Shown here piece after piece: positions 1,111-19,670 of a DNA stretch of 37,227 bases. How positions within the stretch are numbered: the first letter of the stretch is position 1; the number at the start of each line of letters is the position of its first letter. The position numbers were made by a program, and so were the translations under genes. The notes under the pieces are model-generated. The model saw only the letters and a program-made list of their open reading frames with translations. It had not been told where the DNA came from and searched no databases. The DNA comes from Candidatus Paraprevotella stercoravium (GTDB lineage Bacteria; Bacteroidota; Bacteroidia; Bacteroidales; Bacteroidaceae): NCBI GenBank assembly GCA_944320795.1, contig CALUIU010000033.1:1-37227 (forward strand). Reading direction: 5' to 3'.

Positions 1111-1530
1111 ATGAGCACAATAATAACACACAAGGGTAGAGTAAAACAGATTGACAATACCCGAATACAGGTACAGATCATGCAGGCTTCTGCCTGTTCA
1201 GCCTGTGAAGCCAAGAGTCTCTGTCATTCTGCGGAAAGCAAGGAGAAAATGATTGAGGTGCATACCGCCGATGCCGCCGATTTTGAGGTGGGGCAGGAAG
1301 TGATGCTGGTGGGCACCCTCTCGCAAGGACTCAAGGCTGTGGTTTATGCCTATGTTATGCCCTTAATTCTGATGCTGGTGGTTTTATTCCTGTCCCTGCT
1401 TCGGGGGATGGACGAGGCGCTGTCGGCCCTGTTGTCTATTGGCGTGCTGATACCTTATTACCTTGTTATATATCTTTTGCGTCATCATCTGACCCGAAAA
1501 TTTTCATTTACCCTTAAACATATAAACTAA
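1111..1530 (+). CDS. rseC: SoxR-reducing system / RseC family membrane protein
   Basis: A 139-residue inner-membrane protein of the RseC/MucC family. An N-terminal cytoplasmic domain carries three cysteines (C29, C32, C38) in the family's spaced Cys arrangement, and two membrane helices follow at about residues 72-94 and 97-119. In proteobacteria RseC acts with Rnf-type proteins in reducing the SoxR iron-sulfur cluster and modulates sigma-E signalling. Bacteroidales lack that sigma-E circuit, so here the role is more likely a maturation or redox accessory of the Rnf complex (inference). It is the first gene of the operon and ends only 4 bases before rnfB. The start follows the promoter closely and no better upstream start exists. 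Confidence 0.85.
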   Translation: MSTIITHKGRVKQIDNTRIQVQIMQASACSACEAKSLCHSAESKEKMIEVHTADAADFEVGQEVMLVGTLSQGLKAVVYAYVMPLILMLVVLFLSLLRGMDEALSALLSIGVLIPYYLVIYLLRHHLTRKFSFTLKHIN

Positions 1531-8090: not shown

Positions 8091-9371
8091 ATGGATTTGA
8101 TAGAAATTTTTTATAATGACATATTGGCGGCTCTTGGATTGGATAAAATGGATGCGTTGGGGCGTCTGGCCTTTTATCGGCTGATGATCTTGTTGTTGAG
8201 TGCTTTGCTTATGTGGTTTGCTTTCTGGTTCTTCAAGCGTATCCTGAAGCCTGTTGTGAGTCGTATTGTCGAGCGTACCCAAGTATCGTGGGATGATCAT
8301 CTGTTTAATGAGAAGGTGTTGAATACCACTTGTCATCTCATTCCTCCTGTTGTATTGTTTCTGATGGTGCCGGTAATCTTTTATCGCTTTCCGGACATGC
8401 GGATGCCGGAACACGACGAAGCGTTCCGGGCTTTCTGTTATGCCTTGACCAAGATCTATATGGTAGCCGTAGTTATTCGTTGGTGCTTTGTGGTGCTTTC
8501 CAGTATCCGGTTGATTACTGACGAGATGCTCGACCACCGCAACAGCTATGTTTTAGGCGTGATTCAGCTGTTTAAGATCATTATTGGTTTTGTGGGTTTC
8601 ATCATTATAGTGAGCATTCTGATGAACCGTTCGCCGGTGGCTCTGTTTGCCGGATTGGGTGCCGCGGCCACAATTCTGATGTTGGTGTTCAAGGATTCCA
8701 TATTGGGACTGGTGGCCGGTGTGCAGCTTTCGTCTAACGATATGTTACGTAAGGGTGACTGGATCACCGTGCCGCAGAGTGGGGCAGACGGTTATGTGGA
8801 GGAGATTTCCCTGTCTACGGTCAAGGTACGCAATTTCGACAATACCATCACCACGATACCGCCGTATTCTCTGATCAGCCAGTCGTTTCAGAACTGGCGT
8901 GGTATGCAGACCAGCGGAGGCCGCAGGGTGCGCCGCTCGCTGCTGATTGACATGACCACCATTCACCGTTGCAGTGAGCAGGAATGCCGTGAGATTGCTT
9001 CTACCGGATTGATCGACGTGGCCGCCTGTCCTGAAAACGAGCGTGTGAACCTGATCCTTTTCTGTCGGGCTATGGAATGCTTCTTGCGGAGTGAAGACGA
9101 GCTGGTGAATACGGACATGAAACTCATGGTACGCCAGATGCCGGTCACGGCACAGGGATTGCCCGTGGAGTTCTATTTCTTTCTGAGAGATAAGGAGTGG
9201 GTTACCTATGAGCACAATATGAGCACTCTGATAGCCCGTATCATGACCCTGGTACCCCGTTTCGGACTGAAACTCTATCAGGCTCCTTCGGGACGTGATT
9301 TGCTTGCCTTGCATACAGCTGCCGACGGAGCAGAAAGTCAGTATGTTTCCGACGTACCAAGCGGGCGATAA
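8091..9371 (+). CDS. ybdG: MscS-family mechanosensitive ion channel, YbdG type
   Basis: A 426-residue inner-membrane channel that opens under membrane tension during hypo-osmotic shock. Several N-terminal helices lead to the pore helix and MscS core, with a Gly/Ala-rich pore segment (GLGAAATILMLVFKDSILG) and downstream beta domain (GDWITVP, VKVRNFDNTITTIP). These stretches resemble E. coli YbdG (MscM) closely from memory, as do the overall length and the C-terminal extension after GGRRVRRS. The start ATG at 8091 gives a plausible N-terminus. It stands alone between a hairpin and a terminator shared with the convergent minus-strand operon. Confidence 0.88.
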   Translation: MDLIEIFYNDILAALGLDKMDALGRLAFYRLMILLLSALLMWFAFWFFKRILKPVVSRIVERTQVSWDDHLFNEKVLNTTCHLIPPVVLFLMVPVIFYRFPDMRMPEHDEAFRAFCYALTKIYMVAVVIRWCFVVLSSIRLITDEMLDHRNSYVLGVIQLFKIIIGFVGFIIIVSILMNRSPVALFAGLGAAATILMLVFKDSILGLVAGVQLSSNDMLRKGDWITVPQSGADGYVEEISLSTVKVRNFDNTITTIPPYSLISQSFQNWRGMQTSGGRRVRRSLLIDMTTIHRCSEQECREIASTGLIDVAACPENERVNLILFCRAMECFLRSEDELVNTDMKLMVRQMPVTAQGLPVEFYFFLRDKEWVTYEHNMSTLIARIMTLVPRFGLKLYQAPSGRDLLALHTAADGAESQYVSDVPSGR

Positions 9372-9373
9372 AA

Positions 9374-9416
9374 ACAAGAATGAGGCATGTCCATGGCGGG
9401 CATGCCTCATTCTTGT
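9374..9416. terminator. Bidirectional terminator between the channel gene and the minus-strand operon
   Basis: A perfect 16-bp inverted repeat (ACAAGAATGAGGCATG and its complement) with an 11-base loop lies between convergent genes. Read on the minus strand it is followed by TTTTT, so it is the stronger terminator for the operon ending at 9461; it can also end the channel transcript. Confidence 0.85.
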
Positions 9417-9460
9417 ATAGAAAAACTGGGAAACTGTGTTCCGTTGGTCTATAATGACAA

Positions 9461-10102
9461 TCAGAAGTAAGGATTGTTCTCCCGTTCGAAGCCTACGCTG
9501 GTCGGTTCGCCGTGACCGGAATAAACCTTCACGTCGGCCGGAAGTGTCATGATCTTGTTTCTCAGACTGCTTACCAGCTGCTCGTAATTGCCTCCGGGGA
9601 AGTCCGTACGTCCGATGCTCATGCAGAAGAGCGAATCGCCCGAGAAGAGCACCTTCTCTTCGGCACAATAGAAGCAGATGCCTCCCGGAGTGTGTCCCGG
9701 AGTGTGAATCACCTGCAAGGTGTGGCTTCCGAAGGTAATTTCATTCCCCTCGTTCAGCAAGCGGCCCAGGGCTGGCATGGGGTGACGGTTGGCGGTGCCC
9801 AAAAACATCTGGCATTGTCCGTCCATATTGTTATAGAGTGCGGCATCGGCCGGATGGCATTCCGGCAGCACCTCGTAACGGTTGGCAATGAAGCCGCAAC
9901 CGAAGATGTGGTCAAAGTGCGTGTGCGTGTAAATCTGATGCACGGGGCGCAGCTGTTCCTCTTCGATGTAGGAAGCGATGGCCTGTTCGTTGGCCGCATC
10001 ATAAGCGCCACAATCGATGATGACTGCTTCGCGCGTTTCGTCGCTCACAATGTAGCAGTTCTCCGCCACCATATTGGTGACGATGCGTTTTACTTTCAGC
10101 AT
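9461..10102 (-). CDS. Metallo-beta-lactamase-fold hydrolase (glyoxalase II-like)
   Basis: A 213-residue zinc hydrolase of the GloB/YcbL type. The metal-binding motif THTHFDH (H60, H62, D64, H65) is followed by HTPGHTPG, GDSLF and the C-terminal YSGHGEPTS and NPYF signatures common to glyoxalase II-like proteins. The substrate cannot be told from sequence; the short length lacks the extra C-terminal glutathione-binding domain of true GloB. An ATG four codons upstream (10114) is possible, but I chose 10102 because MLKVKRI matches the usual N-terminus. It is the last gene of a five-gene minus-strand run. Confidence 0.85.
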   Translation of the reverse strand: MLKVKRIVTNMVAENCYIVSDETREAVIIDCGAYDAANEQAIASYIEEEQLRPVHQIYTHTHFDHIFGCGFIANRYEVLPECHPADAALYNNMDGQCQMFLGTANRHPMPALGRLLNEGNEITFGSHTLQVIHTPGHTPGGICFYCAEEKVLFSGDSLFCMSIGRTDFPGGNYEQLVSSLRNKIMTLPADVKVYSGHGEPTSVGFERENNPYF

Positions 10103-10117
10103 GTCGTTCAGCAAGTT

Positions 10118-10738
10118 TTAGAGTGAAACATAAACCACCTTCTTGGTTTCGAAAAACTCCTCGTGGAACACGTCGCTGAGCGATGAGATGGTCACGTGGT
10201 TCTTCATCGGCATGGTTTCCTTATCCAACTCGCCACCTTTCAGGCAGATCAGTCCGTTGGGCAGAGCGTTCTTCTGTTCCTTCTTGATGTTCTTGCGGAT
10301 GATCTTGATGAGATCCATCAACGGCATCACGGCACGGCTCACCACGAAGTCAAACTGCCGTTTCTCCTCTTCGGCGCGGCAGTGGCGGGTGGTGACATTT
10401 TCCAGTCCGAGCGCTTCGGCCACGGCGGTGCATACCTTGATCTTCTTGCCGATGCTGTCCACTAAATGGAACTTGCATTCCGGAAACATGATGGCCAACG
10501 GGATACCTGGGAAACCGCCTCCCGTGCCCAGGTCCATAATCTCGGTGCCCGGTTTGAAGCGGATGTAGTCTGCAATACCCAGAGAGTGCAGCACATGATG
10601 TTCGTACAGATTGTCAATGTCCTTACGGGAAATGACGTTAATCTTGGAGTTCCAGTCGTGATACAGCTCGTCGAGCATGCGGAACTGTTCGATCTGACGC
10701 TCGGTCAGGTTGGGGAAGTATTTTAAAATCTGCTCCAT
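10118..10738 (-). CDS. rsmG: 16S rRNA (guanine-527-N7)-methyltransferase
   Basis: A 206-residue class I SAM-dependent methyltransferase that modifies G527 of 16S rRNA, where loss gives low-level streptomycin resistance in other bacteria. The SAM-binding motif DLGTGGGFPGIPLA is present, followed by the acidic LVDS strand end and the VSRAV segment typical of RsmG/GidB. Length is normal. Its start overlaps the end of the lipoprotein gene by 16 bases and its stop sits just before the next gene, so it is translationally embedded in this operon. Confidence 0.95.
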   Translation of the reverse strand: MEQILKYFPNLTERQIEQFRMLDELYHDWNSKINVISRKDIDNLYEHHVLHSLGIADYIRFKPGTEIMDLGTGGGFPGIPLAIMFPECKFHLVDSIGKKIKVCTAVAEALGLENVTTRHCRAEEEKRQFDFVVSRAVMPLMDLIKIIRKNIKKEQKNALPNGLICLKGGELDKETMPMKNHVTISSLSDVFHEEFFETKKVVYVSL

Positions 10739-11544
10739 AAGTCTTTGGTTTTGTCCGTTAGAATGTTTTTAAGTTTTTTGTAGGTAAGGTAGATTTCCAC
10801 CGGTCCGGCTTCGTAGGAGGCCAGTTCGTCGCGCTGGTAATAAAAGCGGATGCCTTTTTCCTGAAGCAGGAAGTTGTCGGTGGCATATATGTTGGTCAGC
10901 CGTAGGAATCCCTTTTCGCGGAGTTCTTCGAGCGACTCCACGTTCTGTTCCTTTTCCAAGGCCTGCAACAGCAGCGCTTCCAATTCTATGTGACTGCCTT
11001 TCTTGAAGATGCTGTCAGCGGTGAGTAAGGCCCCGCTTCGTGCGTCGAAGTTCAGAAAGAGCTTCTCTTCATAAGGCGCAGCGCCTCCTTCGTGAAAGCT
11101 GTGTGTCACCTCATATTGCACCAACTCCTTGGTGTCTGGAATGTGGCGTGCCGCAATGGTCCGGTTGTATTCATACCAGGCTTTGGTCACCTGCGTCTTT
11201 TTCTCCTGGTTATAAAGCTCCTGCAAATCCTCGCGGTAGCGCTTCAGATAGGCTGTAGCAAACGAGTCGGCGGCGGCCTGCGGAGTCTGTGTCACCGTGC
11301 GCTCGTACATACGCTGCATCACGGTGCCGTTTACCGACCGGCCGATGGAATCCTGTGCCGTCAGATAATCCATTTCGATGCGGATGCGTCCCGAAGGCGC
11401 GTCCGAGTCCTTGTTCAGGCGTTCGCTCCGTTCGGTTTGCAGCGTCTGAAACTCATGCTTCGGCGGGGGAGTTGTCTCCTTGCAGGCCGAAGCCATCAGA
11501 ATGCTGCCAAAAGCCAGCATTCCGATCAGCATGTTCTGTTTCAT
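10723..11544 (-). CDS. DUF3298-domain lipoprotein
   Basis: A 273-residue exported lipoprotein. A signal peptide ends in the lipobox MASA-C with the lipidated cysteine at about residue 21. The C-terminal half matches the DUF3298 (RsiV-like) pattern: NFDARSGALLTADSIFKKGS, which leads into a helix-rich end. DUF3298 occurs in RsiV, the lysozyme-binding anti-sigma factor of Bacillus, but this protein has no anti-sigma part, so only the exported fold is shared. Its function is unknown. It lies 4 bases after the antiporter gene and overlaps rsmG. Confidence 0.75.
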   Translation of the reverse strand: MKQNMLIGMLAFGSILMASACKETTPPPKHEFQTLQTERSERLNKDSDAPSGRIRIEMDYLTAQDSIGRSVNGTVMQRMYERTVTQTPQAAADSFATAYLKRYREDLQELYNQEKKTQVTKAWYEYNRTIAARHIPDTKELVQYEVTHSFHEGGAAPYEEKLFLNFDARSGALLTADSIFKKGSHIELEALLLQALEKEQNVESLEELREKGFLRLTNIYATDNFLLQEKGIRFYYQRDELASYEAGPVEIYLTYKKLKNILTDKTKDLWSRF

Positions 11545-11548
11545 GATG

Positions 11549-12832
11549 TTATGAATATTTTTTCGGATACCGGAAGAGGATGCTCAGCAAGGCGCAGCCT
11601 CCCATCAGCATCGGATAGTACAGATACGGGATAATGTTTATCGGATTGATACCCGCCAGTCCGGCCGCCATCAGCATCTGTGCTCCGTAGGGAATCAATC
11701 CCTGGGCAAAGCAGGAGAAGGTGTCCAGAATGCTGGCGCTCTTTCTTTTGTCCACTCCGTAGCGCTCGGCGATGTCGTTGGCCAGAGGACCCACGGTGAT
11801 GATGGCCACTGTATTGTTTGCCGTACACAAATCCGTGAGGCTCACCAGAGCAGCTATACTCAGCTCGGCACCTCGTTTGGAATTCACTTTGCGGGTCAGC
11901 ATGCGGATGGCATAGTCAATACCTCCGTTGTAGCGGATCAGTTCCATCAGTCCGCCGGCCAGCATAGTGATGATGATCAGTTCGCCCATACCCAGGATTC
12001 CGCTTCCCATGGCGTCGAACCAGGAATACAAGTCATAGTTTCCGTTGGCAAAACCTACGATACCCGCCAGCACGATGCCCGAGGTGAGCACCAGCATCAC
12101 ATTCATTCCCATCACGGCTGTAACGAGTACCACCAAATAAGGGATTACCTTGAAGAAATTCACTTCCGGAATGTGTTGCGGCGAATTGATTTGTGCGCCC
12201 ATGATGAAGTACAGAATCAGGGCAATGATGGCTGCCGGTACCACAATCTGGGAGTTCACCTTGAATTTGTCCTTCATGTCGCATCCCTGCGTGCGGGTGG
12301 CCAGAATGGTTGTGTCCGAGATAAACGACAGATTGTCGCCGAAATAGGCACCGCCCACAACGATGGCCACAATCATGGGTAGCTCGGCTCCTGTTTTGGC
12401 GGCAATACCTGCTGCGATTGGCGTAAGCGCGACAATGGTACCCACCGAAGTTCCTACCGACAGCGAGATGAAGCAAGAGGCGATGAAGATACCCGCCAAC
12501 AGAAGATTGTCGGGCAAGAGATGCAGGGCCAGGTTCACGGTGGCGTCGATGGCACCCATGTTTTTTGCCGAGGTGGCAAAGGCTCCGGCCAGAATGAAAA
12601 TCCAGATCATGAGCATCATGTTCGGATGTCCCGCTCCTTTGGAGAATATTTTCACACGTTCTTCCAGTTTCTCGCCAGTGGTGATGGCCACACCGTAGAT
12701 ACAGGCAATCAGAAAGGCCACTACGATGGGGACTTTATAGAAATCGTTGGCGATGATGCTGGTTACCAGATAAGTAAGCAGCAATACGATGATCGGACTC
12801 AGCGCCCATATACCTTTTTTGTGATGATGCAT
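11549..12832 (-). CDS. NhaC-family Na+/H+ antiporter
   Basis: A 427-residue membrane protein of about ten to twelve helices that fits the Na+/H+ antiporter family NhaC (PF03553). Visible family features include SVGTSVGTIVALTP in the middle and LTDLCTANNTVAIITVGP in the second half, the latter typical of this family's ion-binding region. Substrate could be Na+/H+ exchange or an organic-acid exchange, as in the malate-Na+/lactate members. It starts 15 bases after a LacI-type regulator gene and precedes the lipoprotein gene by 4 bases, so the regulator probably shares its transcript. Confidence 0.85.
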   Translation of the reverse strand: MHHHKKGIWALSPIIVLLLTYLVTSIIANDFYKVPIVVAFLIACIYGVAITTGEKLEERVKIFSKGAGHPNMMLMIWIFILAGAFATSAKNMGAIDATVNLALHLLPDNLLLAGIFIASCFISLSVGTSVGTIVALTPIAAGIAAKTGAELPMIVAIVVGGAYFGDNLSFISDTTILATRTQGCDMKDKFKVNSQIVVPAAIIALILYFIMGAQINSPQHIPEVNFFKVIPYLVVLVTAVMGMNVMLVLTSGIVLAGIVGFANGNYDLYSWFDAMGSGILGMGELIIITMLAGGLMELIRYNGGIDYAIRMLTRKVNSKRGAELSIAALVSLTDLCTANNTVAIITVGPLANDIAERYGVDKRKSASILDTFSCFAQGLIPYGAQMLMAAGLAGINPINIIPYLYYPMLMGGCALLSILFRYPKKYS

Positions 12833-14125: not shown

Positions 14126-17100
14126 ATGAAGTATAGCCTGTACATATATAGGTCACGATGGGCAAAGGCGTTGGTCTTTGTCCTCTTTTTCTGCACCTTT
14201 TTAATAGGGGTGTCTTGTCAGCACGGATCTGCTGAAGCTGATCGCATGCAGGTAGATACGCTGAATGCACAGGCTTATTTATGGCGGTATAAGAATCTGG
14301 ATTCTTCATTATATTATGCCCAAAAAGCAGAACAACTCGCGTTTTCCTCGGGTTATGGGCTTACCGAGGCACAGTTGAACAAGGCTTTTGTCTATTATTT
14401 CCGAATGGATTTTACACGGGTAGAAGAGCTGGTACAGCAGATTTATTCTCATGGCAATAACCAGATAGAATTATTGGGTGCTGATGTGCTGATGATGCGT
14501 GTCTGCCAACGAACTTCGAGAAATCTGATGTTCTATACTTACCGTAACCGAGCTTTGGAGCGAATAGCCCGTATTCGTGAGGAATTTGATGATTTGGATA
14601 AGGAAGAACAATCGGAGGCAACCCATACCATTGCTTCTTATCATCTGACGGCTGCATATTACTATTATAATATGGAATTATTGACTCAGGCCTCCGAAGA
14701 ATTGGCCAAAGTTCATGAAGAAGATCTTGAGGATGATGTTCCATTGCATTTGCGCTACATGTATCTGGTGGGATATACCGGTTCCAATTTGGGAGTGGAG
14801 AGCCGGGAGATACTGTTGCGTAAGTTTGATATACTGTTCAAGGCCTTTGCTACTTCCCGTTATTATGGTTATACATATCTGGAGGCTTATGCCAGTTGGT
14901 CTATATCCTTGATTTTCATCAATTCATATTATCGCCGGATTCTGCGTGAAGAACGTCCCGGATGGTATGATTATCTTTATACCCAGTTCATGGGATGGTA
15001 TGACCCGACTGACAGTGATGATAACAAACTGGCTGTGCTGTTTGCAGAGAAAGCACTTAAGTCGTTTCAGACATATGGCTATCAATATATGGTCGTTACT
15101 TTGTATCAGACTTTGGGTTTTTTTGCTATTGTCAATAAAGACTATGTTCAGGCTGAACATTATTTGCATAGGGCAATGGATGAGATTAACCATTACCATC
15201 AAAGCTATTTTGATCAGCTTCATATTTCTCCATTGCAGATGTATGTGCCCGGCAGTACCAGTCCGGAGGATCAGCGTTGGTTGCTGGATGAGGACAAATA
15301 TACTATGCCTGAATGGATTGCCAAGGAACGGGAACATCTCAGTGTGCTTTATACCGTTTTAGGTAATAGCGAGGCTGTGGCTTATAACCGGAATACGTAT
15401 TTGGACATTCTGGAAGTGATACGTCAGGACCGGGAGTTGGAGAGTAAGTATAAGGAACTGAAAGAACAGACCCAATCGCTAAATACGGTTCTGATGTTTG
15501 TTCTGCTTTTTGTACCTATTTTTTTGGTCGCTTTTTTTGTGTATTTCCGTTTGTGGAGTTTGCGGGCACGCCAGCAGACAGAGGCCTTGCGTCATACATT
15601 GGAATTTTGTGATACACTTTCTGATCCGTCTGTCGTTTGTCAGAAGACTATTACAGGAAACGGATGGAACAAGATTGAAAACCGTATTGTGCAGCAGGTC
15701 TTTCAGGCACTTTCGCTTTGGGCGAAAAATACTGTAGAGAAACTGAATAGTCTGGACGAAGAATATCAGATGATCTGTGATGAGCGATATCTTTCTGAGC
15801 GCCGGATTGTGCAGAATAAACGAAAGAATATCGGTAAACGTGCCAAGGTGAACCTTGTTTATTCGGTATTTCCGTTAATTGACCGCTTGCTTCGTGAAAT
15901 CCAAAAATTCCGTAAGGAAGATTATGAAGGTGCCCAACGTCTGGATTATGCATTGGAGTTGACAGATCGTATAAATCTTTATAATGAGTTTCTGTCTCGG
16001 TGGATTATTCTGAATCGGGGAGAATTAAGTCTGCATATTGAAACTTTTGCTCTTCAGGATTTGTTGCAGGTGCTGCAAAAAAAACATTATTCTTTCGAAC
16101 GAAAAGGGTTGGAATTGTTTGTGCCGCAAACTGATTTATGGGTAAAGGCAGACAAGGCGCTGACGCTTTTCATGATAAATACATTGATGGATAATGCACG
16201 GAAATTCACGGAACATGGCGGAAAAGTTTCTGTGGAAGTTTGTGACGGAGAACAGTATGTCGAGATTGCCGTGTGTGATACAGGAGAAGGTATGTCTGAG
16301 GAAGATGTAAAGATGATTCTGGAAAATAAGGTTTATGACAGCAGTCGTATTGGACACAAACAGAATGACAGCCGGAAAGGACAGGGATTCGGTTTGATGA
16401 ACTGTAAGGGCATTATTGAGAAATACCGTAAAACGAATCCAATTTTTCAAGTGTGCCGTTTTCTGATTGAGAGTGAGTTGGGAAAAGGTAGTCGTTTTTG
16501 TTTCCGTTTGCCTAAAGGGATAAAACGGGATTTGATGTTATTGCTGTTTTGTCTTTCATTTGGGTTGGCAGGTGCTCATGATTCATCAGTAGCCCGTGAG
16601 CGCCAGGGGGCACGTGGTCCGCAAACATTGTCCGTGCGTATAGATCCCAATATCCAGAAAGCTACAGCGTGGACCGATTCGCTTTATTTTGCCAACAACG
16701 ATCGCGCATATGAAAAAGCAATGGCCTATTCCGATTCGGCTTTCGCTTGCATTAATCGTTTTTACGCACGCCTTTATCCCAAGAGCACCGAACATCTGTT
16801 TTCCTATAAGCCTGAGTTTATTTCTATTCCGCTTGAGGTAAAATGGTGTCAGCAGCACATACCAATGGACTATACTCTGCTCTTGGAGTTGCGAAATGAA
16901 ACGGCCATAGCTGCCATGAATCTGCATGACTGGGGGCGTTATTACTATAACAACCGTGTGTATACTCAGCTCTATAAGGTATTGGGGCAGGATGCTTCGT
17001 TGGCAGAATATTGTGTGGCGTTGGAGGTTTCTCAAAACAATATTAAGACCAGTATTGTGCTATTGGTTTTTGCTTCGCTGGTAGCCATGGTGGGGTTCTA

Positions 17101-18334
17101 TATCCTGTATTTCCGTAAACGCATAGCTTTTCAGTTGAATTTGCAGCAGATTACGGAGGTCAACAATACTCTGTATGCCCGTTTCCAGGATATTTCTCAA
17201 GAGAAGATTCCCGAAAAACTGCAGGAAATGCTGGATCTGCTCTGGCATGGTTTCAATGAAATTCATCAGGTGCATGGCGTGCGTTTGCTCTTGTTGCGTG
17301 AAGACCAGTCAGAACTGGTGCGTCTCACGAGTGGAGAGATTCCGGAACTGTTTCTGGTAGATGAACTGATGGAACGGGTGGTGCATACATTGGAGCCTGT
17401 AGAGCAAGTATCCGGTTTTAATGTTTATCCGCTTTATGTGTGTTCCTCTGAGGGTGTAACCAAACCGATTGGGGCTGTGTTGCTCAATGTGGACCGCACA
17501 AGTGTACAGGAAGCCGACATGTTGCTCGACAATTTCATTATCCGTTGTTTTTCCATTATTCTCTATCAGAAAATTCTTCTGGTGAGTCGTGAATATGAGA
17601 ATATAGATTTGGCCCGTGATGAATGCGACCGTGTGCGTTATGAGGAGGATGCGCTTTATGTGCAGAATCAGATATTGGACAATTGTCTTTCTTCCATCAA
17701 GCACGAATCCATGTATTATCCGAGTCGTATCAGGCAGCTGCTGTTGAAATTGCAGGAAACAGCAGATCCTGCCGAACGCCGAATGATGACTGCCAACCTG
17801 GAGGAACTTATTGTATTTTATCGTTCCATTTACTCCATGTTGTTCCAACAGGCCGAACGCCAGCTGAATGCCATAAACTTCCGGCGTCGTGACTTTCTGG
17901 CAACTGATTTGCTGGCAGAGGCTTTGCAGCTGTTTGCCAAGATGGCTCGGAAACGTAGAGTTGAGGCTTGTGTTGAGGTTCAGTCGGAGTCTTGTATTAT
18001 TCGGGGCGATGAGGAAATGCTGCTATATCTGTTGGAAAATCTGTTTTGTGCGGCGCTTGACCGTAACGAACATTTGTCGGGTACCGTTTTTTCATTGTCT
18101 CTGCATGACGAAGGGGATTTTGCCCGTTTCATTTTTGATGATCCTCGCCCGATATACAGTTCGGCTGAGCTTGAGGAACTCTTTATGCCTGAAGGAGGAG
18201 GCATACCATATTTGATCTGTAAACAGATTATTCGGGAACACGATACTTATATGAATTTCTGCGGATGTCGTATTAATGCAGAGAAAACCCATGCTGGGGC
18301 CCGTATTTGGTTTACTATACCCAAAAAGAATTAA
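14126..18334 (+). CDS. Double membrane-anchored sensor histidine kinase (two kinase units in one chain)
   Basis: A 1402-residue protein made of two tandem sensor kinases. Half 1 has a signal peptide or anchor (1-31), a periplasmic helical TPR-like region (about 40-430), a membrane helix (454-476), a helical dimerisation region (about 540-625) and a HATPase domain (675-797) with N-box INTLMDNARKF (684-694), G1 motif DTGEGM (718-723) and G2 motif GQGFGL (752-757). A second signal-like hydrophobic stretch (803-817) starts half 2: a periplasmic region (818-975), a helix (976-996), a coiled coil and GAF-like region, a helical segment with IKHES (H1193) and a HATPase-like end (1290-1402) lacking the G1 and G2 motifs. 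No clear phosphoacceptor His is seen in half 1. It resembles Bacteroidales proteins annotated with DUF5112/DUF5113 (from memory, unverified). It is co-transcribed with a response regulator 6 bases downstream. Confidence 0.85.
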   Translation: MKYSLYIYRSRWAKALVFVLFFCTFLIGVSCQHGSAEADRMQVDTLNAQAYLWRYKNLDSSLYYAQKAEQLAFSSGYGLTEAQLNKAFVYYFRMDFTRVEELVQQIYSHGNNQIELLGADVLMMRVCQRTSRNLMFYTYRNRALERIARIREEFDDLDKEEQSEATHTIASYHLTAAYYYYNMELLTQASEELAKVHEEDLEDDVPLHLRYMYLVGYTGSNLGVESREILLRKFDILFKAFATSRYYGYTYLEAYASWSISLIFINSYYRRILREERPGWYDYLYTQFMGWYDPTDSDDNKLAVLFAEKALKSFQTYGYQYMVVTLYQTLGFFAIVNKDYVQAEHYLHRAMDEINHYHQSYFDQLHISPLQMYVPGSTSPEDQRWLLDEDKYTMPEWIAKEREHLSVLYTVLGNSEAVAYNRNTYLDILEVIRQDRELESKYKELKEQTQSLNTVLMFVLLFVPIFLVAFFVYFRLWSLRARQQTEALRHTLEFCDTLSDPSVVCQKTITGNGWNKIENRIVQQVFQALSLWAKNTVEKLNSLDEEYQMICDERYLSERRIVQNKRKNIGKRAKVNLVYSVFPLIDRLLREIQKFRKEDYEGAQRLDYALELTDRINLYNEFLSRWIILNRGELSLHIETFALQDLLQVLQKKHYSFERKGLELFVPQTDLWVKADKALTLFMINTLMDNARKFTEHGGKVSVEVCDGEQYVEIAVCDTGEGMSEEDVKMILENKVYDSSRIGHKQNDSRKGQGFGLMNCKGIIEKYRKTNPIFQVCRFLIESELGKGSRFCFRLPKGIKRDLMLLLFCLSFGLAGAHDSSVARERQGARGPQTLSVRIDPNIQKATAWTDSLYFANNDRAYEKAMAYSDSAFACINRFYARLYPKSTEHLFSYKPEFISIPLEVKWCQQHIPMDYTLLLELRNETAIAAMNLHDWGRYYYNNRVYTQLYKVLGQDASLAEYCVALEVSQNNIKTSIVLLVFASLVAMVGFYILYFRKRIAFQLNLQQITEVNNTLYARFQDISQEKIPEKLQEMLDLLWHGFNEIHQVHGVRLLLLREDQSELVRLTSGEIPELFLVDELMERVVHTLEPVEQVSGFNVYPLYVCSSEGVTKPIGAVLLNVDRTSVQEADMLLDNFIIRCFSIILYQKILLVSREYENIDLARDECDRVRYEEDALYVQNQILDNCLSSIKHESMYYPSRIRQLLLKLQETADPAERRMMTANLEELIVFYRSIYSMLFQQAERQLNAINFRRRDFLATDLLAEALQLFAKMARKRRVEACVEVQSESCIIRGDEEMLLYLLENLFCAALDRNEHLSGTVFSLSLHDEGDFARFIFDDPRPIYSSAELEELFMPEGGGIPYLICKQIIREHDTYMNFCGCRINAEKTHAGARIWFTIPKKN

Positions 18335-18340
18335 TGAAGC

Positions 18341-19063
18341 ATGAAACCTTTTAAAGTAATTATTGTTGAGGATGTAAAATTAGAGCTGAAGGGAACGGAG
18401 GAGATTTTCCGTACAGAAATTCCCGAGGCGGAAGTGGTGGGTACGGCTATGAATGAGGCCGATTTCTGGGAACTTATAGATAAACAGGTACCTGACCTGT
18501 TGTTGCTGGACCTGGGACTGGGAGGGTCTACAACGATTGGTGTGGATATTTGCCGCCAGGTACGCCGGAAATATCCGGATTTGCATATTCTGATCTTTAC
18601 AGGTGAGGTATTGAACGAACGCCTTTGGATTGATGCCTTGGCTGCCGGTACCGACGGTATCATTCTCAAGAGCGGTGAACTGCTTACGAAGAATGATGTG
18701 CGTCAGGTGATGGACGGACGCCGTTATGTTTTTAACCAACCCATTTTGGAAAAGATCGTGGAGCGTTTCCGTCAGGCGGTGCTGAATGACAACAAGCGCC
18801 AGGACGCGGTGATTGATTATGACATAGACGAGTATGACGAGCGTTTTTTGCGTCATCTGGCATTGGGGTATACCAAGGAAGCCATTACCAATCTGAAGGG
18901 TATGCCTTTTGGAGTAAAGAGTCTGGAGAAGAGGCAGAACGATCTGATCAGCCGTTTGTTCCCTTCAGGCGACCGAATGGGGGTAAATGCTACTCGTCTG
19001 GTTGTTCGTGCCTTGGAATTAGGTATTCTTAATTTGGATAAGCTTGAAGCCGATGATGAATAA
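18341..19063 (+). CDS. Response regulator with LuxR/NarL-like output domain
   Basis: A 240-residue response regulator, the likely partner of the upstream kinase. The receiver domain (about 4-125) has the acidic pair E10/D11, phosphoacceptor D57 in LLLLDLGLGG, the conserved Thr in LIFTGE and the Lys in IILKSG. The C-terminal part (about 165-232) is a helical domain where a NarL/LuxR-type HTH would be expected, but the usual LTxRExEVL signature is replaced by DERFLRHLALGYTKEAITNL, so the recognition helix is divergent. It starts 6 bases after the kinase stop, and its last codons overlap the start of the next gene. Confidence 0.85.
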   Translation: MKPFKVIIVEDVKLELKGTEEIFRTEIPEAEVVGTAMNEADFWELIDKQVPDLLLLDLGLGGSTTIGVDICRQVRRKYPDLHILIFTGEVLNERLWIDALAAGTDGIILKSGELLTKNDVRQVMDGRRYVFNQPILEKIVERFRQAVLNDNKRQDAVIDYDIDEYDERFLRHLALGYTKEAITNLKGMPFGVKSLEKRQNDLISRLFPSGDRMGVNATRLVVRALELGILNLDKLEADDE

Positions 19064-19670
19064 AGTTGCCAATATTATATTTTTGGTTGAAGTGTTGGTG
19101 CATATTCTGCTGGTTATTTCTTCTTTAGTCTTTTCAACAGCAGGATATCCCATCAATAATATTCTTTCACCGGAAGGATTGCGTTGGTCTTTTCTGAATG
19201 CTGCATCCAATGTGTTGCATGAGCCCCTGATTTACCTCATCGGTTTCTTCCTGAGTTGGGGAACATTCAAGCGTTCGGGACTGGATAGGGCATTACTTCG
19301 TCTTTCTTTAGGGATGAAAGGAGTTCCTCTTTCTTTTCGACAGCGCCGGGCTTTGTGGTTCACTTTTTTGCTAACCCTCTTATTTGTCATAATGATGTTG
19401 GTATTGGTTCTGTTTCCTCAAGGAATTCTGGTGAGTGTTACCGGGCGTGTTTTTCCTTCACCTTTTAGTGTAGGATTAGTGCCGGCTTGTATGTTGGCAT
19501 TAGTTTTGATTTCGATTACCTATGGTATAATCGGCAATACCTTGCGTACCTTTCATGAAGTGGTGCAGTCTGTATATTGTGGGCTGGGCGAGTATGCCGG
19601 ATGGATTCTGGTCTATCTGATGGGAGCGCAGTCTTATTCTTGTCTGATGTATATATTTCCTAATCTTTAG
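19053..19670 (+). CDS. Miniature AbgT-like membrane protein lacking the transport core
   Basis: A 205-residue protein with five predicted membrane helices. From memory of E. coli AbgT, residues from about 35 to 70 (NNILSPEGLRW, then a helix ending KRSGLDRALLRL) align with the AbgT N-terminal part (NLLSVEGLHW...). Residues from about 95 on (FPSPFSVGLVP, SITYGIIGNTLRT, AGWILVYLMGAQ) align with its later part (MPSPFIKGIVP, LAYGIATRTIR, AGFIVMVFPLAQ). The intervening AbgT region, which contains the first helical hairpin and core, and the final third are absent. The two aligning blocks are joined without a stop or frameshift. It starts inside the last codons of the response regulator and ends 7 bases before pcrA. 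AbgT proteins export p-aminobenzoyl-glutamate or antifolates; this form probably cannot transport (inference). Confidence 0.65.
   Translation: MMNKVANIIFLVEVLVHILLVISSLVFSTAGYPINNILSPEGLRWSFLNAASNVLHEPLIYLIGFFLSWGTFKRSGLDRALLRLSLGMKGVPLSFRQRRALWFTFLLTLLFVIMMLVLVLFPQGILVSVTGRVFPSPFSVGLVPACMLALVLISITYGIIGNTLRTFHEVVQSVYCGLGEYAGWILVYLMGAQSYSCLMYIFPNL

Follow-up and report, generated by a model that had tools for sequence, protein, structure and literature searches.

The window analysed here, a 37,227-nucleotide stretch of DNA from Candidatus Paraprevotella stercoravium (contig CALUIU010000033.1), carries at positions 14126-18334 of the plus strand a single open reading frame (ORF) encoding 1402 amino acids (aa) in two tandem sensor-kinase halves. 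In this study, we report that the two halves are complementary: half 1 (residues 1-797) has an intact ATP site and no conserved phospho-histidine, and half 2 (residues 798-1402) has an invariant candidate phospho-acceptor, H1193, followed by a degenerate catalytic domain. With a probability of roughly 0.74, we interpret the product as an obligately paired histidine kinase, in which the catalytic and ATP-binding (CA) domain of half 1 (CA1) phosphorylates H1193 and the adjacent response regulator receives the phosphate, the halves having arisen by duplication and complementary loss. If this is true, the halves form a matched pair able to signal only together. The gene would then be a clean example, in nature, of complementary degeneration: after a kinase was duplicated, each copy lost the working part that its sister retained. 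Such pairs are now widespread within a single family of gut bacteria.

Conservation was assessed among homologues from the window's family, which we take to be Bacteroidaceae in GTDB. A total of 140 loci were examined, and the kinase was one ORF in 135 of them (in 3 of these, a contig edge removes the 5' end). These 135 rows, drawn from 25 coded genera, made up the aligned set to which the counts below refer; the proteins of L047 and L157 are identical, giving 134 distinct sequences. Three of the five loci without a kinase row belong to genus g211, and the sequence retrieved upstream of their regulator contained no kinase; the other two are cut short by a contig edge.

A sensor-kinase ATP-binding domain with N, G1 and G2 boxes was found in half 1 only. 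In CA1 (16172-16516), which a Pfam scan matched to HATPase_c at residues 683-797, N690 (16193-16195), D718, G720 and G722 of the G1 box (16277-16291) and G754 and G756 of the G2 box (16379-16396) are each present in 135/135 homologues, and N685 in 133. The string G-x-G-x-G-[LMI] occurs in CA1 of 125 rows, compared with CA2, the corresponding domain of half 2, of only 2. Upstream of CA1, a hairpin resembling the dimerisation and histidine phosphotransfer (DHp) domain (DHp1, 15671-16009) has no conserved phospho-histidine. The counterpart of the H-box, around V578-P583 (15857-15874), reads K-V-N-L-V-Y-S-V-F-P in the window, with V578 kept in 125 rows and P583 in 133. Profile alignment with hhalign pairs H1193 with Y579 across a one-residue gap, and position 579 is occupied by Asn in 32 rows, Thr in 30, Tyr in 23, Ala in 10, His in 9, Gly in 7 and other residues in the remainder. 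Half 1 of the window protein resembles DivL in this respect, with a DHp domain that lacks the phospho-histidine and a catalytic domain whose boxes are present.

Half 2 shows the opposite pattern. Only this half has a DHp hairpin bearing a histidine with an acidic residue directly after it, namely DHp2 (17510-17866), where H1193 (17702-17704) lies in the motif DNCLSSIKHESMYYP and K1192, H1193, E1194 and P1199 are each invariant in all 135 rows. Neither half of the window protein combines the histidine and an ATP site within the same DHp-CA module. In CA2 (17888-18325), Asn was found at the N-box position 1309 in 0/135 homologues (Glu in 45, Ala in 36, a gap in 12, the rest mixed), and glycine at both 1341 and 1343 of G1 also in 0/135. 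The motif D-x-G-x-G was located anywhere in CA2 in six rows, five times near the C-terminus and once after the N-box region. The stretch corresponding to the ATP lid is shortened to 17 residues in the window (1350-1366). A general deletion of the lid in CA2 was considered and rejected, since this stretch is short in 41 rows while 76 have 26-29 residues.

The earlier note, made from the letters of the window alone, had described half 1 as having ATP motifs and no H-box histidine, and half 2 as having a candidate histidine, H1193, and no G1 or G2; both observations are confirmed across the family. It had also proposed to check for conservation of H1193 and the first-half G boxes without conservation of their counterparts, and this is what the alignment columns gave, in strong support of the complementary defects. 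Of the three findings that the note had named as refuting it, two did not appear, since no conserved histidine came to light in half 1 and H1193 did not vary; the motifs lend no support to the third, an ATP site in half 2. The interpretation built on these observations is partly supported, and largely so where sequence evidence is concerned, as set out below.

The constraint on the two halves is mirrored. Mean pairwise identity, computed over 127 rows for seven domains, is 0.566 for CA1 versus 0.319 for CA2, 0.384 for DHp1 versus 0.483 for DHp2, and 0.455 for the H-box window of half 1 versus 0.710 for H-box 2; among the seven, constraint is strongest in CA1. Judged by these values, each half is constrained at the function it retained and relaxed at the one it lost.

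Structure models were consistent with this assignment. The AlphaFold2 (AF2) model of residues 500-1402, built from 127 rows (mean predicted local distance difference test score, pLDDT, 87.9; predicted template modelling score, pTM, 0.66), contains a DHp-like helical hairpin in each half (516-597/603-628 and 1129-1211/1215-1247), each with an alpha/beta domain after it (639-797 and 1255-1400). The top Foldseek matches of this model were histidine kinases, including HK853, ZraS and DivL. Residues 1-500, modelled from 78 rows (pLDDT 92.3, pTM 0.84), form an all-helical TPR-like array with TPR proteins as top matches, among them LGN and the peptide-binding Rap proteins (Rap target-based template modelling score, TMt, about 0.5-0.6). 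From this model, a peptide or protein is a possible ligand of the half-1 sensor (14252-15544).

The halves are homologous to each other. Comparison of their profiles with hhalign gave E-values of 5.4e-19 for DUF5113, 6.3e-19 for CA and 2.4e-19 for the whole cytoplasmic core. Since the halves match each other in DUF5113, in the DHp-CA core and in the CA domain, we discarded the idea that two unrelated kinases were fused; for the same reason, tandem duplication of one kinase type, then fusion and complementary loss, is the likely origin. The earlier reading of the chain as a fusion of two kinases is better put as a tandem duplication. A possible picture of the undivided ancestor comes from another family, coded f101, two genomes of which (L144 and L145) carry a kinase with a 718-aa frame having H-box and ATP motifs together; its layout comprises a lipobox, a start weakly resembling DUF5112, a transmembrane (TM) helix, the H-box FRHDMSPYI, and the motifs NNALRYT, DTGCGI and GFGL. 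The C-terminus of the regulator adjoining it matches DUF5932 above the cut-off, although the search for DUF5932 outside the window's family gave weak matches only. The f101 relative scored 80 bits with the half-1 profile, compared with 54 or less for the kinases of the window's own genome that were compared (window protein excluded), and 81 bits with the CA2 profile, compared with 32 or less. A further f101 kinase (L152) was close with half 1 (78 bits) and not with CA2 (45 bits). By eye, CLSIFRHD of the f101 relative aligns without gaps to CLS(T/S)IKHE of half 2, and the most common half-1 version, CLSIV(N/T)G, has one residue fewer. In a tree, CA2 groups with the outgroup, the f101 relative (93/84), to the exclusion of CA1, whose branch is starred; because the branches are long, the tree carries limited weight and is only suggestive as a pointer to one origin of the halves. 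In a sample of 60 f101 genomes, three gave matches at E 1e-20, including a weak one, and the ancestor is therefore deduced rather than densely sampled.

In the proposed mechanism, half 1, consisting of a lipoprotein-like TPR sensor, a TM helix, a DHp domain without histidine and an intact CA domain, would provide the use of ATP. Half 2, with a DUF5113 sensor, a TM helix, a DHp domain carrying H1193 and a dead CA domain, would provide the phospho-acceptor and dock the adjacent receiver-DUF5932 regulator. The sequences themselves establish that the halves are homologous, that the CA1 motifs and H1193 are invariant while the other two sites have decayed, and that the regulator is linked to the kinase. 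We infer from this that CA1 reaches H1193, and any pairing of DHp1 with DHp2 would likewise be a deduction; ATP bound by CA1 would then phosphorylate H1193, whose phosphate would go to the aspartate of the regulator. The transfer might be intramolecular, might run from one chain to another, or might involve two products of cleavage.

Several observations weigh against this mechanism. The nine homologues mentioned above do carry histidine at position 579, which is Tyr in the window; seven of them share the window's genus, and two of the nine read V-H-D. These nine may have a second phospho-site, which is neither conserved nor present in the window. Mean-field direct coupling analysis (135 rows, effective number of sequences, Neff, 111) was uninformative, the top pairs spanning all domains with no enrichment of DHp1-DHp2 pairs. 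DivL itself is a histidine-less kinase with intact boxes, and an excerpt of its published description (PMC4211667) reports poor ATP binding. According to the same excerpt, DivL has no histidine, retains the N, G1, F and G2 boxes and binds an ATP analogue weakly, and on that model half 1 would be a pseudokinase that only senses or regulates, with H1193 phosphorylated by another kinase or serving a phosphatase role. We consider this unlikely, given the invariance of the six ATP-site residues listed above and the standing of CA1 as the most constrained domain; it would also leave the operon, to which the look for another kinase was confined, without any ATP-using kinase part. That the halves act as independent kinases, half 1 through another histidine or residue and half 2 through atypical ATP binding, could draw on His579, on the histidine found at position 560 in 75/135 homologues, and on Asp1339 of half 2, kept in 80/135. 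We give it very little credence, since neither histidine is conserved, the window has Y579 and R560, and CA2 lacks the N-box Asn and the G1 glycine pair in every row.

The split-function mechanism would hold equally if the chain were a polyprotein, and the junction between the halves (16514-16585, KGIKRDLMLLLFCLSFGLAGAHDS) raises this possibility. Half 2 had been noted earlier to begin with its own signal-like hydrophobic stretch and to have its own membrane helix; its helix, TM3, lies at residues 977-993. The junction mostly begins with K/R, continues with a short hydrophobic core and terminates in a signal-peptide-like end, for example KGVRKTLMLVLVAFLPVLAGC or KGIRRLVCILVLFALPGMAFAQD. Its median uncharged stretch is 15 residues, versus 20 for TM1, 22 for TM3 and 17 for the true N-terminus; in eight ordinary kinase N-terminal anchors of the window's own genome, chosen by eye, this stretch measured 17-26 residues. 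Cleavage sites were scored with self-made patterns rather than a published predictor, and compared with shuffled sequences and with small controls, which gave a mixed outcome. The lipobox class was found at 44/135 junctions versus 5.7 expected from shuffles (40/135 and 46/135 with two other lipobox patterns). In genera g2 and g3, 20 of the 23 rows have a lipobox. Among the 89 non-lipobox junctions, xxA before a listed residue occurred in 55 versus 26.7 in shuffles (standard deviation, sd, 4.2; the highest of 300 shuffles gave 37), and Ala before Gln, Asn or Asp in 40 versus 19.0 (sd 3.7, highest 30); for this second pattern, the counts in the membrane helices were 3/135 (TM1) and 1/135 (TM3).

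On this evidence, we read the junction as a putative internal signal peptide that may well be cleaved in many members of the family, which would turn the product into a matched pair. Signal peptidase (SPase) I or II would then release two membrane kinases in a 1:1 ratio that form a heterodimer, which we rate at somewhat under an even chance; the fuller proposal, that the heterodimer is obligate and joins two periplasmic inputs into one phosphate flow, is held tentatively. Against cleavage, the kinase is one ORF in every aligned row, and the junction exceeds a plain TM hydropathy threshold in 111/135. The looser A-x-A pattern was not enriched at the junction (61 versus 64.8 in shuffles), and xxA is not confined to it, with 13/135 at TM1 and 21/135 at TM3. 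Three of the eight control anchors match the loose classes, two of these the lipobox class, with the Cys inside the hydrophobic core and not at its end. The window's own site, GLAGA|HD, is a moderate candidate of which we are less sure. An internal start codon at the junction, from which half 2 would also be made separately in addition to the full chain, seems quite improbable: an ATG lies within nine codons of the junction start in 74/135 homologues versus 23% at random positions (16535-16537 in the window), but Met is frequent in signal-peptide cores and the position of the ATG is not conserved. The division of labour within one protein that had been proposed from the window is upheld as to the complementary defects and may be wrong for the mature product, because the junction resembles a cleavable internal signal peptide. 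That the chain may mature into two is the addition made here to the earlier note.

The closest precedent is the pair CheA3 and CheA4 of Rhodobacter sphaeroides, in which CheA4 phosphorylates CheA3; an excerpt of the literature (PMC9198570) describes the two proteins as parts of one divided kinase. The shared logic would be an ATP part that phosphorylates a histidine on the other part, which is predicted here from motifs only. CheA3 and CheA4 are, however, two separate chemotaxis proteins of a cytoplasmic cluster, whereas the window encodes two membrane-anchored DHp-CA halves in one ORF; each half has a periplasmic domain of its own, and domain relics are present in both. A Pfam scan of the window protein up to E 1 detected neither a CheA nor an Hpt domain, and the CheA3/CheA4 pair is an analogy only. 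DivL of Caulobacter resembles half 1 in having a DHp domain without histidine and a catalytic domain with recognisable boxes (PMC4211667), but it is a regulator that binds DivK~P and has no kinase activity, while here the missing histidine sits on a linked sister half. The f101 kinase shares with the window protein the N-terminal lipobox, the weak DUF5112-like start, the TM helix, the DHp-CA core and the neighbouring DUF5932-type regulator, and differs in being undivided.

By profile, the window protein and its regulator are members of the DUF5112/DUF5113 kinases and DUF5932 regulators of Pfam, scoring 202.4 bits for DUF5112 (residues 43-315) and 210 bits for DUF5113 (residues 843-997) against curated cut-offs of 29.4 and 27.1. 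The Pfam entries of these three families name no function, and the present results suggest one. A literature search returned no paper with the names DUF5112, DUF5113 or DUF5932, nor, in titles and abstract starts among the matches listed, any single-gene divided membrane kinase. Cleavage of a fused bacterial protein by signal peptidase occurs in the cytochrome b/c1 of Bradyrhizobium, a case that the literature search did not return. The system makes testable the ideas that histidine kinases can be obligate heterodimers with two inputs and that signal peptidase can help in their assembly.

A profile search detected DUF5113 in 313/399 genomes of the window's family. Among 295 genomes of the order, matches were found in 10 at E 0.001, five of them above the cut-off. 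Of these five, four belong to the same family; the remaining one lies outside it and reaches the cut-off only when its neighbours in the frame are included. None of the 140 loci examined showed the halves as separate genes. In every one of the first 62 loci (62/62), the regulator is the gene immediately downstream and has the same strand, the predicted starts lying no more than 372 bases away; the remaining 78 loci were fetched via the regulator and therefore give no independent count of linkage. Three further kinases of genus g211 retain KHE, the N-box and G1, and at one of the three g211 loci without a row (L251, genome G425) the kinase is still two-halved and lies on a different contig from the regulator. 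The shorter homologues, of 978-1079 aa (L106, L113, L114, L194, L195, L197, L200, L205 and L207), retain both halves. One genome (G376) has two copies of the two-half kinase (L102 and L103), each adjoining its own regulator; no second full-length copy was found in the window's own genome.

The remaining features of the ORF, all on the plus strand, are as follows. An N-terminal signal peptide (14126-14218) has its hydrophobic peak at residues 15-31 and ends in a lipobox with Cys31 (14216-14218), present in 123/135 homologues. It is followed by DUF5112 (14252-15070), the TPR-like sensor of half 1, presumably periplasmic from the predicted topology, and by the first DUF5113 copy (15074-15544; PF17140 match), which includes TM1 (residues 456-472), found in all homologues. 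The second DUF5113 copy, homologous to the first, spans 16652-17116 and includes TM3. Between it and DHp2 lies a cytoplasmic alpha/beta linker domain (17270-17491), putatively GAF/PAS-like by its secondary structure in the AF2 model; its profile matches 104 homologues, and the other 31 are without the domain or have diverged.

The cognate response regulator (18341-19063, plus strand), a receiver joined to DUF5932, starts six bases downstream of the kinase ORF. Its DUF5932 C-terminus resembles a NarL/LuxR-type helix-turn-helix by eye, and its conservation is far above that of the kinase, with 63-95% identity to the window regulator among homologues. In a genome of another family (G120, locus L146), two adjacent ORFs (8120-10207, 695 aa; 10225-12195, 656 aa) match the half-1 DUF5113 profile, and the first also matches the DUF5112 profile; kinase profiles gave no match to either at E 0.001, which makes the pair a sensor-only relative. 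In the window, a short ORF between the regulator and UvrD (19044-19667) matches part of the AbgT transporter profile.

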